Below are positions 35,288 to 49,475 of a stretch of DNA of 64,000 nucleotides, piece by piece (position 1 is the first letter of the stretch; every line of letters begins with the position of its first letter). The notes under the pieces are model-generated. The model did no database searches, was not told the origin of the DNA, and saw only the letters and a program-made list of their open reading frames with translations. The position numbers were made by a program, and so were the translations under genes. This DNA is from Actinoplanes lobatus (GTDB lineage Bacteria; Actinomycetota; Actinomycetes; Mycobacteriales; Micromonosporaceae): NCBI RefSeq assembly GCF_014205215.1, contig NZ_JACHNC010000001.1:8800501-8864500 (forward strand), given 5' to 3'.

Positions 35288-36727
35288 TCAGCGGGCGCCG
35301 ACCCGCTCCGTCACCGCCCGCAGGATGTCCTCGACCCGGTCCTTGGCGTCGCCGAAGAGCATCGCGGTGTTCTCCTTGAAGAACAGCGGGTTCTGGACAC
35401 CGGCGTATCCGGAGGCCATCGACCGTTTGAACACGATCACGTCCTCGGCCTCCCACACCTTGAGCACCGGCATCCCGGCGATCGGGCTGGTGGGGTCCTC
35501 GGTCGCGGCCGGGTTGACCGTGTCGTTGGCGCCGATGACCAGAACCACCGACGTGCCCGAGAAGTCGTCGTTGACCTCATCCATCTCGAGCACGATGTCG
35601 TAGGGCACGCGCGCCTCGGCGAGCAGTACGTTCATGTGGCCGGGCAGGCGGCCGGCGACCGGGTGGATGCCGAACCGGACGTCCACGCCACGGTCGCGCA
35701 GCACCCGGGTGAGCTCGGCGACGCCGTACTGGGCCTGGGCCACGGCCATGCCGTACCCCGGGGTGATGACCACCGTGCTCGCCTCGGCGAGCAGGTCGGC
35801 CACGCCCTCGGCGGTGATCTCGCGGTGCTCGCCGTACTCCTTGTCGTCGGCGGGCCCGGCCTCGATGCCGAAGCCGCCCGCGATGACCGAGATGAACGAC
35901 CGGTTCATCGCCTTGCACATGATGTACGACAGGTAGGCGCCGGACGAGCCGACCAGCGCGCCGGTGACGATGAGCAGGTCGTTCTCGAGCAGGAACCCGG
36001 CGGCCGCGGCGGCCCAGCCGGAGTAGCTGTTGAGCATCGACACGACCACCGGCATGTCGCCGCCGCCGATCGAGGCGACCAGGTGCCAGCCGAGCGCCAG
36101 CGCGATCACGGTGACCGCGACGAGCAGCCACAGCTGCGGGTCGATGACGAACCAGGTGGTGAGGACCGCGAAGACGGCCAGCGCGCTGAGGTTGAGGAAG
36201 TTCTTGCCGGGCAGCATCAGCGGGCTCGACTTGATCTTGGCGGAGAGCTTGAGGTACGCCACGATCGAGCCGGTGAAGGTGACCGCGCCGATGAAGACGC
36301 CGATGAACACCTCGGCGCTGTGGATGCCGAGCACGCCCAGCCCGTCCAGGGCCAGCGCCTCCTCGCCGGTCAGGTGCGCCTCGACGTGCAGGTAGCCGTT
36401 CCAGCCGACCAGCACGGCGGCGAGGCCGACGAAGCTGTGCAGCAGGGCGATCAGCTCCGGCATGCCGGTCATCTCGACCTTGGCGGCCCGGTAGAGGCCG
36501 ATCGCCGCGCCGATCACGACGGCCGTGACGAGCAGGGCCAGGTCGACCGGGCGCAGCGTGCCGGCGACGGCCAGGCCGATGGTGGCCGCCAGGGCCAGGG
36601 TCATTCCGGCGATGCCGAACGTGTTGCCGGCCTTCGCGGTCTCGTGCTTGGACAGGCCGGCCAGCGCCAGGATGAAGAGCAGGGCGGCGACGATGTACGC
36701 GGCCTGCGCCGCGGCTTCGATGGTCAT
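35288..36727 (-). CDS. pntB: NAD(P) transhydrogenase beta subunit
   Basis: A 479-residue subunit. About nine membrane helices (residues about 8-290) form the proton channel, and the C-terminal dIII domain binds NADP(H), with [21 protein letters not shown] and [21 protein letters not shown] as its fingerprint. The complex transfers hydride between NADH and NADP+ coupled to proton movement. ATG at 36727 has AGGAG upstream inside the end of pntA, and the gap to pntA is four bases. It ends 11 bp before a T-run terminator. Confidence 0.96.
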
Positions 36728-36731
36728 CGGG

Positions 36732-38249
36732 TCAGCTCCTGGTGAACATGGCGAGCATGCGGCGGGTGACCGCGAATCCGCCGAAGACGTTGATGCTGGC
36801 CAGCAGGATCGCGACGAACGACAGCGCGGTCACGAGGCTGCCGCCGTGGCCCAGTTGCAGCAGGGCGCCGACGACGATGATCCCGGAGATCGCGTTGGTC
36901 ACCGACATGAGCGGGGTGTGCAGCGCGTGATGCACGTGCCCGATCACGTAGTAGCCGATCACGATGGCCAGCGCGAAGACCGTGAGGTGCCCGCGCAGGG
37001 CGGCCGGGGCCAGGGCGGTGAGCAGGAACAGGGCGCCCGCTCCGGCGCCGATCAGCGGCAGCCTCGGCAGCGGCTTCCGCGCCTTGACCGGCGCGGGTGC
37101 GGCGGCCGGGGCGGCGGCCGCCGGGGCCGCGGACACCGACACCGCCGGCGGCGGCCAGGTCAGCTCGCCGTCGCGGACCACGGTGATGGACCGCTGGACC
37201 ACGTCGTCGAAGTCGAGGACCAGCTGGCCGTCCTTCTCCGGGGTCATCAGCTTCATGAGGTTGACCAGGTTGGTGCCGTACAGCTGGGAGGCCTGGGCGG
37301 GCAGCCGGCCGGCCAGGTCGGTGTAGCCGATGATGGTCACGCCGTTGGCGGTCACGACCACCTCGCCGGCGACCGTGCCCTCGACGTTGCCGCCGTTGGC
37401 CGCGGCCATGTCGACGATCACGCTGCCGGCCTTCATCGCGGCGACCATCCGCGCGGTGATCAGGCGCGGCGCGGGCCGGCCCGGGATCAGCGCGGTGGTG
37501 ATGATGATGTCGACCTCGCTGGCCTGCTCGGCGTAGAGGCGGGCGGCCCGCTCGTTGTAGTCGTCGGACATCTCCTTGGCGTACCCGGTGGCGGAGACCT
37601 CGACGTCGGCGGCCTCGACCGACAGGTACTCGCCACCCAGCGAGCGGACCTGGTCGGCGACCTCGGGGCGGGGGTCGGTGGCCCGGACGACGGCGCCCAG
37701 GCTGCCGGCCGCGCCGATCGCCGCGAGCCCGGCCACGCCGGCGCCGGCCACCAGCACCTTCGCCGGCGGAACCTTGCCGGCCGCGGTGACCTGGCCGGTG
37801 AAGAAGCGGCCGAAGGCGTGCGCCGCCTCGACGACCGCCCGGTACCCGGCGATGTTGGCCATCGAGGACAGCACGTCCAGGGACTGGGCGCGGGAGATGC
37901 GCGGCACCGCGTCCATCGACAGGGCGGTGATCGGGCGGCGGGCCAGGTCCTCGACCAGGTCGGGGCTCAGCCGCGGGCTGAGCATCCCGATCAGGGTGGT
38001 GCCCGGCGCGAACTCGTCCAGCCGGGACGCGGCCGGTGGGTTGATGGTGAACACGATGTCGGCGGTCAGCGGGTCCCCGATCGTGGCGCCGGCCTCGGCG
38101 AACGCCTCGTCGGAGAACGACGCCGCGGCGCCCGCTCCCGGCTCCACCACCACCTGGTAGCCCAGTTTGACCAGTTGCGCCACGGTGGCTGGCGTGGCGG
38201 CAACGCGCCGCTCGCCCGGATCCGGGTCCCTGATTACACCGATGTCCAC
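36732..38249 (-). CDS. pntA: NAD(P) transhydrogenase alpha subunit (dI and membrane part fused)
   Basis: 505 residues. The NAD-binding dI domain (about 1-375) has [16 protein letters not shown] and the Rossmann loop [23 protein letters not shown] short Ala/Pro linker leads to four helices (about 410-500), including the conserved [26 protein letters not shown]. Many actinobacteria split these parts into two genes; here they are fused as in E. coli. GTG at 38249 has GAGGAG six bases upstream. It is first gene of the pntAB operon, divergent from the amine oxidase gene. Confidence 0.95.
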
Positions 38250-38343
38250 GTCGACTCCTCGGTAGATGTTGACCATGAAAACGTTCGACGGACGTCGTCA
38301 GTTCAAAACGCGGAGTGATTGTTACTCACCAGTACGTTGTTGG

Positions 38344-38453: not shown

Positions 38454-39695
38454 ATGTCGATCTCGCAATGGGTGGTTGCGTCGGCGGTCTCCCGCTGGGG
38501 CGACGACCCCTGGGCGCGCGGCTCGTGGAGCCTGATCGGCCGGGGCGGCACCCCACGCCACCGCACCGACCTCGGCACCCCGATCGGCTCACGCCTGCGG
38601 ATCGCCGGGGAGGCCACCCATGCCACTCGTGCGGCGATGACGCATGGGGCGTACGAGGAAGGGGTGTCCGCCGGAGCCTGGGCCGCCGGGCAGGGACATG
38701 CCCGGGTGGCGGTGATCGGCGCCGGCATCGCCGGCCTGGCCGCGGCCCGCACGCTGACCGACCGTGGCGTGTGGACACGGGTGCTCGAGGCCCGGGACCG
38801 CATCGGCGGCCGGACCGCGCCCGCACAGGTCGGCGGCTTCGGCTTCGACCTGGGCGCCAACTGGTTGCAGCAGTTCCACGACAACATCCTGGCCCGGCTC
38901 GCCGAGCGGCTGGAACTGCCGATGGTCCCGACCGACTTCACCGACCCGCTCGTGCTGGGCACCCCGTACGCGCTCCCGGACGGTCTGGAGGAGGATCTGC
39001 GGGCCCGGCTGGCCGCCGCCTCCGAGCAGGCCGGCATCGCCGAGGTCCTCGACGGCTGGCTGGCCGATCCCGGCAGGTGGACAGCGGACGACATCCGCCG
39101 GTTCGTCGACGCGGAGATCGTGATGGACTCCGGCGCCCCGCTGTCCTGGCTCAGCGCCCGGCACGGCTTCGAACCGGGCGTCGGCGAGGGCGACCGCTGG
39201 ATCGTGGGCGGCTACCGGCTCCTGGTCGACCACCTGGCCGAAAGCCTCGACATCCACCTGAACCGGCCGGTCCACCACATCCGCACCGGCCCTGACGGCG
39301 TGGCCCTCGACGACGACCTGCGGGTGGACGCCGTGATCGTGACCGCGCCGGTCGGGGTGCTCGCCGGTGACGCGATCACGTTCGACCCACCGCTTCCCGC
39401 CACCCACCGCACCGCCCTGCAACGGCTCGGGATGGGCCGGGTGGAGAAGGTCATCCTGCGCTGCGACAGGCGGTTCTGGCCGGTGCATCCGGCCGGCTAC
39501 TACCGGGTGCACGGTCCCGGCGAGAACTGTGTCAGCGAATGGCTGGACGCCACCGCCGCGGACGGGACACCGACGCTGGTCGGCCTCTTCGCCGGGCCCT
39601 GGCTGGACGACCTGTGGACCGGCCCGGACGAGCAGGTCGCCGCACGCGCCGCGGCCGTCTTCGCCGAGGCGGCCGGCGGGGACCCGGCCCGCTGA
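38454..39695 (+). CDS. Flavin amine oxidase with apparently circularly permuted order
   Basis: A 413-residue protein. Residues 1-77 contain VSRWGDDPWARGSWSLIG and RLRIAGEATHATRAAMTHGAY, which in flavin amine oxidases form the C-terminal FAD-binding segment. The normal N-terminal Rossmann motif follows at 85-100 (VAVIGAGIAGLAAART), then E112 in LEARDRIGGRT and FDLGANWLQQ. The chain ends in VFAEAAGGDPAR, just where the RWGDDPW segment would normally begin. All parts of the fold are present once, so it is probably a working FAD enzyme that oxidises an amine. Its end converges on a LacI gene nine bases away. ATG at 38454; a weak ribosome site. Confidence 0.85.
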   Translation: MSISQWVVASAVSRWGDDPWARGSWSLIGRGGTPRHRTDLGTPIGSRLRIAGEATHATRAAMTHGAYEEGVSAGAWAAGQGHARVAVIGAGIAGLAAARTLTDRGVWTRVLEARDRIGGRTAPAQVGGFGFDLGANWLQQFHDNILARLAERLELPMVPTDFTDPLVLGTPYALPDGLEEDLRARLAAASEQAGIAEVLDGWLADPGRWTADDIRRFVDAEIVMDSGAPLSWLSARHGFEPGVGEGDRWIVGGYRLLVDHLAESLDIHLNRPVHHIRTGPDGVALDDDLRVDAVIVTAPVGVLAGDAITFDPPLPATHRTALQRLGMGRVEKVILRCDRRFWPVHPAGYYRVHGPGENCVSEWLDATAADGTPTLVGLFAGPWLDDLWTGPDEQVAARAAAVFAEAAGGDPAR

Positions 39696-46204: not shown

Positions 46205-47566
46205 TTACGAGAGCAGCCGGGCCGCGACCGCCTCGCCCATGCGGATGGCCCCGTCGACGTGCTGGAAGCCGAGACCGGCGATGTCGCTGCTGGCGAAAGC
46301 CAGCGGCCCGACGTCCGACCGCAGATGCCGGCCGTAACGGGTCAGCGAACCGATGTCGAAACTGGTGCCGAACGCGCCGACCGTCCACTCGTCGGCCATC
46401 CACGGGCTCTCGTAGTAGTGCACCGGCGACAGCGCCTCCGGCCCGTAGTAGGTGGCCAGCGACTCCAGCACCTTCGCCCGGCGTTCCGCAGCGTCCAGCG
46501 CCAGCAGCCCGTCCGCCTTCACGTCCGAGACGAAACCGACGAGCGTCCCCCGGGTCTCACCCTCGACGTCCTCGTTGGTGTTGTCGTACGCCTCGTGGAC
46601 CAGCGCGTACGGGCTGAACGCCGTCCCCGACAACCCGAGTTCCCGCCAGAACGGCGTCGCATAGGTGATGTGCAACTTGATCACCAGGCCGAACGAGATG
46701 TGCTGGCGCATCTGGGCCTGCACCGGCGGCAGCGCCGGAACGTACTGCACCCGGCTGACCAGGGTCGGCGGCACCGCCATCACCACGTTGCGGCCACGGT
46801 AGCTGTCCTGCCCGGTGAACACGGTCGCACCGTCGGCGTCCCACTCCACCTTCGTGACCGCCTCACCGAGACGCACCGTCCCGGCCGGCAACCGGGAGGC
46901 GAGAGCCAGGGGCACCCGCTGCAATCCGCCGACCACCCGCCGGTCCAGGATGAAATCGGCGTCAACCAGGTGGCTGAATCCACCGGCCGACGCGGCCATC
47001 AGCACCGCCGACAGCGCCGAGAACGAGTGCGCCGGCTTGGTCAGCATGGCCGGCCCGATGTAGAGGCCGATGTTGTCACGCGCCTCGGCGTCGTCGGTCT
47101 GCTCAGCCAACCAGGCGGCGAACGAGATCCGGTCAAGGTAGTCGGCGTCCGGATGGTTCCACGGTTCGAGGGGATCCATCTCGGCGGCCAGCTTGTCGAG
47201 GATGACGGTGAGCCGGTCCATCTCGGTGGCGGTCCGCTCGGACACCGGGAACTTCTCGCCTTCGAAGGTGCACCGCACCCCGTCAAGCCCGATGTAGACC
47301 GACTCGCCTTCCCGATACCGGGAGTAGGTCTCCAGGCCCAGTTCGCCCAGCAGCGCCAGCAGACTGGTCTGGTCCGGCGACACCCACTGGCCGCCGACCT
47401 CGAGACGTACGCCGTCGAGCGTGTCGGTCAGCAGCCGGCCGCCGACGCGGTCGCGGGCCTCCAGCACGATCACACTGCGGCCGGCCGCGCGCAGCCGGTT
47501 GGCCGCGGTCAGCCCGGTGACGCCGGCGCCGACCACCACCACGTCGTAGTCGGGGTCGCTGGTCAC
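46205..47566 (-). CDS. Flavin monoamine oxidase, putrescine-oxidase-like
   Basis: A 453-residue enzyme in normal order. The Rossmann motif VVVVGAGVTGLTAANRL is at about 9-25, then VLEARDRVGGRL and LEVGGQWVSPDQT. The C-terminal segment has the expected WTVGAFGTSF...LRSDVGPLAFASSDIAGLGFQHVDGAIRMGEAVA. It would oxidise putrescine to 4-aminobutanal with release of H2O2 and NH3, given its place after agmatine deiminase and N-carbamoylputrescine amidase. GTG at 47566 has TGGAGG upstream and overlaps the preceding stop (GTGA). Compare the permuted oxidase at 38454. Confidence 0.9.
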   Translation of the reverse strand: MTSDPDYDVVVVGAGVTGLTAANRLRAAGRSVIVLEARDRVGGRLLTDTLDGVRLEVGGQWVSPDQTSLLALLGELGLETYSRYREGESVYIGLDGVRCTFEGEKFPVSERTATEMDRLTVILDKLAAEMDPLEPWNHPDADYLDRISFAAWLAEQTDDAEARDNIGLYIGPAMLTKPAHSFSALSAVLMAASAGGFSHLVDADFILDRRVVGGLQRVPLALASRLPAGTVRLGEAVTKVEWDADGATVFTGQDSYRGRNVVMAVPPTLVSRVQYVPALPPVQAQMRQHISFGLVIKLHITYATPFWRELGLSGTAFSPYALVHEAYDNTNEDVEGETRGTLVGFVSDVKADGLLALDAAERRAKVLESLATYYGPEALSPVHYYESPWMADEWTVGAFGTSFDIGSLTRYGRHLRSDVGPLAFASSDIAGLGFQHVDGAIRMGEAVAARLLS

Positions 47567-48564
47567 GAGAGTCCTCCAGGTATCGCCGGTTCCTGCTGGG
47601 TGATGCAGTGGATGCCACCGCCCCGCGCGAAGATCGCCCGGGCGTCGACCCCGATCACCCGGCGGCCGGGGTAGGCGGCGGCCAGGATGTCCAGTGCGGC
47701 GGCGTCCCGGGGATCGTCGAACGTGCAGGCGATCACACCGGCGTTGCACACTAGGTGATTCACGTACGAGTGATCAACTGGGCCACCGTCGTCCTCCAGA
47801 CCCTCCGGCGCGGGCAGGTCGACGATCGTCCAGTCGCCCGGGAACGCGCTTCTCAGAACAGACCCGAGCGCGTGGTCGGGGTGCCGCGGATCCGGCTGGA
47901 CGTGCAGCAACACCGTCCCCGGGGCGGTCATCGTAGCCACGATGTCGACGTGCCCACGGGTACCGAACTCGCCGTAGTCCCGGGTCAGGCCGCGCGGCAG
48001 CCACACCACCCTCTCGACACCGAGGGTGCGGCGCAACTCACCCTCCACCCGCTGCCGCGTCCACCCAGCGTTACGGCCCGGATCCAACTGCACCGTCTCG
48101 GTGACCAGAACTGTTCCCCGGCCGTCGACATGGATCCCGCCACCCTCGTTGACCATGTCCGAGCCGATGATCGTGGCGCCCGCCCACTCGGCGACCTGCC
48201 GGGCGATCCGCGCGTCCCGCTCCCACGTCGCCCAGCTCTGCTGCCCCCAGCCGTTGAACACCCAGTCCACGGCGCCCAGCCCGTCCGGGCCGACCACGAA
48301 CGTGGGGCCGAAGTCGCGCATCCACGCGTCGTCCAGCGGGGCCTCGAAATACTCGACGGCGCGACCCAGCCAGGTGCGCGCTTCCCGTACAGCCGACGGG
48401 TCGACGACCATGCGGACCGGCTCGAACTCGGCCACGGCCAGCGCCACCGACGCCCACGCCTGCCGCGCCTCGTCCGGGTCGTCGCCGAGGGTGTAACCCG
48501 ACGACGGCCACGCCATCCACGTACAGGTGTGCGGCTCGGTCTCGGCCGGCATCCGCCAGCTCAT
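47563..48564 (-). CDS. aguA: Agmatine deiminase
   Basis: A 333-residue member of the Porphyromonas-type peptidyl-arginine deiminase family. It starts with PAETEPHTCTWMAWPSS. The catalytic set includes DAWMRDFGPTFV, NEGGGIHVDGRGT, RGHVDIVA and the nucleophile Cys in GGGIHCITQQEP near the C-terminus. It hydrolyses agmatine to N-carbamoylputrescine and ammonia. The ATG overlaps the upstream amidase gene by four bases and its stop overlaps the oxidase start, so the three enzymes are translated as a chain. Confidence 0.94.
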   Translation of the reverse strand: MSWRMPAETEPHTCTWMAWPSSGYTLGDDPDEARQAWASVALAVAEFEPVRMVVDPSAVREARTWLGRAVEYFEAPLDDAWMRDFGPTFVVGPDGLGAVDWVFNGWGQQSWATWERDARIARQVAEWAGATIIGSDMVNEGGGIHVDGRGTVLVTETVQLDPGRNAGWTRQRVEGELRRTLGVERVVWLPRGLTRDYGEFGTRGHVDIVATMTAPGTVLLHVQPDPRHPDHALGSVLRSAFPGDWTIVDLPAPEGLEDDGGPVDHSYVNHLVCNAGVIACTFDDPRDAAALDILAAAYPGRRVIGVDARAIFARGGGIHCITQQEPAIPGGLS

Positions 48565-49475
48565 GCCAGACCCCGGTACGTGTCCGGCCGCCGCGTACGC
48601 AGGAACGGGAACAGCGTCAGCCAGTCCCGGCGCTGGTCCAGGTCCAGATCGGCCACCAGCACCGCCTCCCGGCCACGCGGCGCCTGGGCGAGGATCCGCC
48701 CGTACGGGTCGGCGATGAACGACGAACCGTAGAAGCTGATCCGCCCCTCGTCACCGGTGCGGTTCGGCACCACCATGAACAGCCCGTTCGCGATGGCGTT
48801 CCCGACGATCACCTGCTGCCACAGCGGCTGCGTGTCGAAATCCGGGTGGTCGGGCTCGGAACCGATCGCCGTCGGATAGGCCAGCAGGTCGGCGCCGCCC
48901 AGCGCGTACAGCCGGGCCACCTCCGGGAACCACTCGTCCCAGCAGGTCGGCATCCCGATCCCGGCGCCGAGGAACCGGTGCACCGGATAGGCGTCGCCGG
49001 CCGGGCCCGGGCGAAAATACTTGTCCTCCACATAGCCCTCGGTCACCGGAATATGCGTCTTACGGGTTCTCGCCACGATCGCGCCGGACGGATCCACCAG
49101 GATCGCCGTGTTGTAGCCGAGCCCGTCACCGAGATCGGCGTCCTCATAGAGCGACGCGTGCACGAAGATGCCGTGCCCGGTGGCCATGGCGGCCGCGAAC
49201 GCCGCGGTCGGCCCGGTCTCCAGATCCTCGGCCAGGTCGGCCGGCCGACCGGTGGGCTCCTCGAACGCCGGATACCGCGACAGCGTCAACTCCGGCAGGA
49301 ACACCACCCGTGCCCCGGATCCGGCCGCCGTCGCGATCCCGTCGGCGAGAACCCGCCGCAGCTCGGCGCCGTCCTCCCGCCACCGGTGCTGAACCAGGCC
49401 GACCCGCAACGGCGGCCGGACCGGCTCGTCGACACGAGCGGGAGAATCGAACACGGCGGACCGGATCAGTTCCAT
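48561..49475 (-). CDS. aguB: N-carbamoylputrescine amidase (nitrilase superfamily)
   Basis: A 304-residue C-N hydrolase. The E-K-C triad is visible: Glu in VVFLPELTLSRYP, Lys in ARTRKTHIPVTEGYVED and Cys in GMPTCWDEWFPEVARLYALGGAD. The second glutamate region is typical of the AguB branch. It hydrolyses N-carbamoylputrescine to putrescine, CO2 and ammonia. It is first gene of the leftward operon, facing the TetR repressor; an inverted repeat lies in the 77-bp gap. The product feeds the amine oxidase two genes down. Confidence 0.9.
   Translation of the reverse strand: MELIRSAVFDSPARVDEPVRPPLRVGLVQHRWREDGAELRRVLADGIATAAGSGARVVFLPELTLSRYPAFEEPTGRPADLAEDLETGPTAAFAAAMATGHGIFVHASLYEDADLGDGLGYNTAILVDPSGAIVARTRKTHIPVTEGYVEDKYFRPGPAGDAYPVHRFLGAGIGMPTCWDEWFPEVARLYALGGADLLAYPTAIGSEPDHPDFDTQPLWQQVIVGNAIANGLFMVVPNRTGDEGRISFYGSSFIADPYGRILAQAPRGREAVLVADLDLDQRRDWLTLFPFLRTRRPDTYRGLA

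Follow-up and report, generated by a model that had tools for sequence, protein, structure and literature searches.

The gene at 38454..39695 of the window, the whole 64,000-nucleotide stretch of Actinoplanes lobatus DNA analysed here, raises the question whether a well-known enzyme fold has been opened and rejoined at another point of its chain, or whether an error or a fusion imitates such a rearrangement. The translated open frame on the forward strand comprises 413 aa plus stop without an internal stop and starts only five codons before the ATG, so that a longer N-terminus is impossible. The protein matches itself at 100%, and the other such genes of its own genome score at most 34.6 bits. 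As a whole it reaches 177.9 bits against PF01593 (Amino_oxidase), which has a gathering score of 19.8, and thus belongs to this family. Scanned alone against Pfam, residues 82–413 match PF01593 columns 1–366 (E 2.1e-45, 156.3 bits), and residues 1–81 match a single family, again PF01593, in columns 374–438 of 443 (E 4.4e-8, 33.3 bits). The model is covered once and in rotated order, with about 7 columns without a match at the cut, instead of the canonical order in which the Rossmann motif comes first and the GE.T segment last. The protein is a single chain with rotated parts, none of them duplicated, as expected of a circular permutant. In a phmmer comparison with human LSD1, residues 83–180 and 222–344 align in order and residues 10–45 match the C-terminal part of LSD1, a piece that is weak taken alone (i-Evalue 0.087). 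Among the 25 NCBIfam matches listed for the protein, no model reached its cut-off.

The preliminary description had taken the N-terminal segment for the usual C-terminal oxidase segment, and residues 9–73 do match PF01593 columns 374–438. The two-part scan (columns 374–438 followed by 1–366) likewise bears out that each part of the fold is present once and that the last segment is missing from the C-terminus. The GEATH motif lies at residues 52–56, as had been proposed, and the first motif, VIGAGIAGLAAA, placed at about 88, starts at residue 87, within one residue. The gene is thus very probably that of a natural circular permutant of a flavin-dependent amine oxidase from the LSD/polyamine-oxidase branch of PF01593. 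Its features are given below, where A1 denotes an alignment of 35 close permuted sequences and A2 one of 30 permuted sequences whose identity to the 413-aa protein goes as low as 27%.

38454..39695, + strand: whole gene of the probable permuted flavin amine oxidase (open frame, self match, homologues of the same order)
38478..38672, + strand: moved segment, residues 9–73, normally the C-terminal segment of the FAD domain with the last strands and the last helix (PF01593 columns 374–438)
38487..38531, + strand: VSRWGDDPWARGSWS motif, residues 12–26, with W15 and W25 (conservation in A1 and A2; alignment to the C-terminal part of LSD1)
38607..38621, + strand: GEATH, residues 52–56, with E53 (E53 kept in A1 and A2)
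38691..38702, + strand: new junction, residues 80–83, between the old last helix (63–79) and the old first Rossmann strand (84–88) (DSSP on the AlphaFold2 model)
38703..39668, + strand: body, residues 84–405, which in the usual order forms the front and the middle of the oxidase (PF01593 columns 1–366)
38718..38735, + strand: GAGIAG dinucleotide-binding motif, residues 89–94 (G89, G91 and G94 invariant in A1 and A2)
39447..39449, + strand: Lys332 (aligned to a K in LSD1)

The structure prediction that the preliminary description had proposed agrees with this arrangement. AlphaFold2 with A2 yields one confident fold for the 413-aa protein (pLDDT 93.3, pTM 0.93), and its elements are a rotation of those predicted with A3 for the actinobacterial normal-order control L059 (pLDDT 94.4, pTM 0.93). 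According to DSSP, the front of the permuted model consists of strands 7–12 and 25–29, helix 34–41, strand 48–50 and helix 63–79, and is followed by the body from strand 84–88, helix 92–103 and strand 107–111 to strand 374–380 and helices 381–387 and 392–406. In L059, the counterparts of the body come first (strand 9–13, helix 17–28 and strand 32–36 to strand 308–314 and helices 316–320 and 326–337), and those of the front come last (strand 344–347, short strands at 361–364, helix 369–376, strand 383–385 and helix 398–413). From these matching rotated elements and confident models, the permuted protein is predicted to share the fold of its unpermuted relatives. A predicted fold in which the front does not pack against the FAD site had been named as a refutation; the pTM of 0.93 indirectly favours such packing, and the moved segment probably contacts the FAD site. 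The top Foldseek match of the permuted model is LSD2 (4hsu; E 1.1e-20, TMq 0.68). Foldseek aligns in sequence order only and cannot superpose the moved piece; a TMq of 0.68 is therefore expected, since a sequential aligner must omit one piece, and it is equally expected from an oxidase merely truncated and extended, so that it is no proof of permutation.

The predicted elements suggest how the rotated chain may be organized. The cut would lie in the loop leading from the last helix of the body to the strand that precedes the W..DP..GSY/W motif, and a linker of four residues would join the old C-terminus to the old N-terminus. This would make one continuous beta-alpha-beta unit of the last strand, last helix and first Rossmann strand, and an unchanged fold and FAD site would be assembled from the same parts, differently ordered. 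The old chain ends presumably lie side by side in the fold, which would ease the join. The spacing from GE to GAG across the junction is 37–42 residues in 82 of the 87 permuted frames sampled; in the other five (L066, L067, L077, L079 and L108) it was counted from a later GE, and these are in register in A2.

Homologues from other genomes bear directly on whether the order is real. A scan of genome contigs yielded 17 loci, namely 16 relatives from Actinoplanes, Symbioplanes, Nucisporomicrobium and Kineosporia and one normal-order protein from Caulobacteraceae. The homologues of the four genera show the same rotated order in one frame, and the permuted order is shared by separate assemblies of Actinomycetota and Pseudomonadota. 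A separate gene for the front segment or a frameshift, which the preliminary description had counted among the findings against permutation, was not seen in the intact homologues read, which have both parts in one shared frame. Since the rotated order is common to many related bacteria, it looks like a real conserved rearrangement and not an error. In A1 (n=35), the moved part ranks with the well conserved regions. Its dN is lower than its dS in 14 of 14 codon-aligned pairs, which indicates purifying selection, and in 13 of the 14 it is also lower than the body dN, the exception being L079/L082.

An ordinary oxidase given a permuted appearance by a frameshift, by chimeric assembly or by an adjacent gene would be an artefact, and the few damaged relatives that exist (L035/L048 and G184) could speak for one. 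In Actinoplanes liguriensis (L035/L048), the permuted gene lacks approximately residues 10–26 and is disrupted near residue 377, and in L118 (G184) the match is interrupted near residue 320 and resumes about 8 kb away on the other strand. Against such an origin stand the intact homologues in other genomes with both parts in one frame, the purifying selection on the moved part and the recurrence of the rotated order at 27–45% identity, and there is next to no chance that it accounts for the gene; assembly error, frameshift and a separate gene were rejected on the ground that both parts are in frame in intact homologues of other genomes. A domain fusion would be a different matter. Here the front piece would come from another oxidase gene and serve a role other than completing the fold, for example by reaching into a dimer partner, and a swap between two chains would leave an identical sequence signature, the evidence in hand being the sequence order and a monomer prediction. 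This is very unlikely, given that each part occurs once, that the linker of residues 80–83 is too short for a long reach, that a monomer is predicted with a pTM of 0.93 and that the spacing across the junction is near-constant. Circular permutation, as the preliminary description had read the gene, is instead supported by the rotated profile match, by the occurrence of the order in two phyla, by the single frame and by the one confident predicted fold.

Relatives of normal order serve as controls for the identity of the moved segment. The oxidase at 46205-47566 had been regarded as a built-in control, and it does have normal order, with PF01593 columns 2–443 in one stretch; it is too remote for the profile of the moved segment, and closer normal-order relatives were therefore taken. 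At E up to 1e-3 with the database size set to 100,000, residues 1–80 match 43 of the 62 distinct normal-order relatives, in every case (43 of 43) behind the match of the body (query residues 81–413); in the remaining 19 of 62, residues 1–80 gave no match at this threshold. Shuffled versions of residues 1–80 matched none of the normal-order relatives in 200 shuffles. Separate searches with front segment and body, of the kind recommended at the outset, give the opposite order in these 43 normal-order relatives. Two-copy intermediates (segment-body-segment) were not found among the distinct frames, 74 permuted and 62 of normal order, and the best weak scores for a second copy are unconvincing (E 0.11 at the C-terminus of permuted L016 and E 0.026 at the N-terminus of canonical L091). 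The permuted order may have come about by tandem duplication and later loss of both outer halves, which would be compatible with the data, or by fusion, the other route that the preliminary description had named.

The protein had initially been treated as a single oddity, a view that did not hold: it belongs to a family with 74 distinct permuted frames among the loci sampled. Within its own taxonomic family, 43 of 300 genomes (its own included) match it at E 1e-40 or better, and loci were taken from 38 of these 43. The profile of A1 (35 sequences) matches 20 of 396 genomes at the level of the phylum and 62 of 394 at that of the class, again with its own genome included. The Actinomycetota loci sampled in these phylum and class surveys, the latter covering part of the 62 matching genomes, are a mixture of permuted and normal order. 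In Pseudomonadota, the phylum of the Caulobacteraceae genome, the A2 profile matches 43 of 299 genomes, and at least 3 of the 299 have the permuted order (L129, L130 and L134), a lower bound because loci were taken from 30 of the 43 matching genomes. Over all loci sampled, 87 open frames are permuted, 66 have normal order and 7 have no detectable segment, and none is two-copy; frames scoring below 40 bits for the body were left out, and the 7 with a body and without a segment were kept unclassified. Because some loci came up in more than one search, counts were also made of distinct frames, giving 74 permuted and 62 of normal order, numbers that describe the sequences sampled and not prevalence and that include a few incomplete or damaged frames (e.g., L035/L048, L073, L117 and L118). 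In a plasmid collection, 8 of 72,556 records match; two from Haloarcula have normal order and the other six are unclassified.

Whether the permuted order arose once or several times was approached with trees built on both parts joined in one order, using chosen subsets of 78, 73 and 65 rows, of which the 73-row set results from dropping five long rows after the first (78-row) tree had been viewed. Several independent permutations at the same hinge would explain why the 78-row and 65-row trees contain four order changes each and why a single change occurs in 0% of 200 bootstrap trees in both sets. Branches with good support require no fewer than two changes in the 78-row tree and at least one in the 65-row tree, where permuted L134 pairs with normal-order L061 (92/67). 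L134 also differs at its junction, with a spacing of 42 as opposed to 37–39 in most, and lacks P.P at the new N-terminus. Conversely, the 73-row tree needs only two changes, and a single permuted clade is not rejected in this set (p-AU 0.433); for all 36 rows the p-AU of one clade is 0.151, rising to 0.38 without L134. The hinge and the junction length are moreover near-identical throughout. Recurrent permutation thus remains a tentative reading, somewhat less probable than its absence.

The residues that are kept indicate what the permuted protein may do. W15, E53, E112 and R120 are invariant in 35 of 35 sequences of A1 and 30 of 30 of A2, and the FAD motifs of the family (GAGxAG, E of EARDR, GGR and GE.T) are represented by G89, G91, G94, E112, R120 and E53, the last of which we take to be the expected FAD contact. 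From these motifs, the protein probably binds FAD. The nearest solved relatives, and best solved PF01593 matches, are LSD2, LSD1, spermine oxidase and maize polyamine oxidase, which places it in the LSD/polyamine-oxidase branch. Lys332 presumably occupies the place of the flavin lysine K661 of LSD1, and its position holds K in 35 of 35 sequences of A1 and 21 of 30 of A2. The protein would most likely oxidize an amine in the cytosol, passing hydride to FAD with Lys332 next to the flavin. W25 and M62, at what we presume to be the positions of the aromatic cage, are unlike the usual cage, and an altered reaction is therefore possible.

The enzyme may also be permuted and yet catalytically retired, a flavoprotein that keeps FAD and structure without oxidizing amines. 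Besides W25 and M62 in the presumed cage, the absence of the flavin lysine in 9 of 30 sequences of A2 and of a conserved gene neighbourhood among the loci compared would fit such a protein, which is nevertheless unlikely because the close clade has K at position 332 throughout and the solved proteins closest to the 413-aa protein are active as demethylases or polyamine oxidases. An amine oxidase thus remains the preferred reading for the 413-aa protein itself; given the 9 sequences without the lysine, not every permuted member need be one. Seven permuted proteins with a Tat-type signal, all of family code f22 (L066, L067, L070, L088, L095, L096 and L106), have T, L or A at the Lys332 position, and two others (L109 and L111) have R. 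Judged by their sequences, these members keep the FAD motifs and may perhaps catalyse a different reaction.

Export signals were sought by pattern match, untrained. The 413-aa protein begins with the moved segment and shows no RRx(F/L/V/I) motif with a hydrophobic stretch; it is probably cytosolic and without a signal peptide. It carries a WLQQ motif at residues 137–140, and none of the 46 permuted frames of the WLQQ group has a Tat-like motif. In the 28 distinct permuted frames without WLQQ, a Tat-like RRx(F/L/V/I) motif precedes the moved segment in 26, and in 17 of these a lipobox cysteine lies behind it. Most of the other permuted members sampled thus appear to carry Tat-type, often lipoprotein-type signals. 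By a similar pattern, 12 of 30 normal-order frames are Tat-like, so that export is not peculiar to the permuted form.

The surroundings of the gene show little constancy and do not point to a substrate. Among 17 loci compared, no cluster of neighbours beyond the gene itself and its shadow frames covers more than a handful, and the upstream region of the window is common only to Actinoplanes flavus (L037). In the window, genes for NAD(P) transhydrogenase subunits (PNTB; AlaDh_PNT with PNTB_4TM) lie upstream on the opposite strand (35288-38276, −). On the − strand at 46205-49475, the normal-order amine oxidase (46205-47566) stands beside a PF04371 deiminase (47563-48564), presumably of the agmatine-deiminase type, and a CN_hydrolase (48561-49475), and the three are possibly a cluster for agmatine/putrescine breakdown. 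In Actinoplanes couchii (L044, 1385-4224; also in L014 and L021), a normal-order oxidase of another subfamily immediately precedes the permuted gene, in the same orientation. Its scores (103.8 bits for the body, 20.6 for the segment) are too low for a recent duplicate, an explanation that was rejected.

Compared with known systems, the permuted protein shares profile columns, FAD motifs and predicted fold with the PF01593 oxidases (MAO, polyamine and spermine oxidases, LSD1/LSD2) and differs from them in having the last segment first and its new ends at a former internal loop. Two close normal-order relatives with a Tat-type signal are encoded on Haloarcula plasmids (L119 and L120), and Haloarcula pelagica has such a plasmid-borne relative; the one on L119 lies near a transposase and an integrase-like gene. 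The L119 oxidase, WP_284011681.1, is 36% identical to the 413-aa protein and has both parts recognised; in contrast to the permuted protein, L119 and L059 have the body first and the segment last. The permuted profile matches 115 PDB sequences at E 1e-10; for the 60 matches listed, the best stretch starts at position 77 or later, and none of these 60 of 115 shows the permuted order in one full-length stretch. Natural circular permutants are known from other folds, with one cut, the old ends joined and each part present once, and the 413-aa protein has the same single cut, joined ends and unduplicated parts. A literature search (full text, with few subscription papers) found no report of a circularly permuted flavin amine oxidase. 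Such proteins are easily overlooked, since profile searches give two- or three-piece matches.

Among the flavin amine oxidases are drug targets (MAO, LSD1) as well as biocatalysts. The evidence supports a conserved family of natural circular permutants of this well-known enzyme fold, unreported as far as searched. On a more speculative note, and with somewhat less than even probability, the MAO/LSD1 fold may be a naturally closable ring that has been cut and rejoined repeatedly at the same hinge, with at least two lineages of Actinomycetota and Pseudomonadota arriving independently at the order of segment and body and with a large group exported by Tat, often as lipoproteins. The conserved permutant shows where the amine oxidase fold opens and rejoins, permuted oxidases are scaffolds with new termini, and a large permuted family makes the origin and recurrence of permutants testable.
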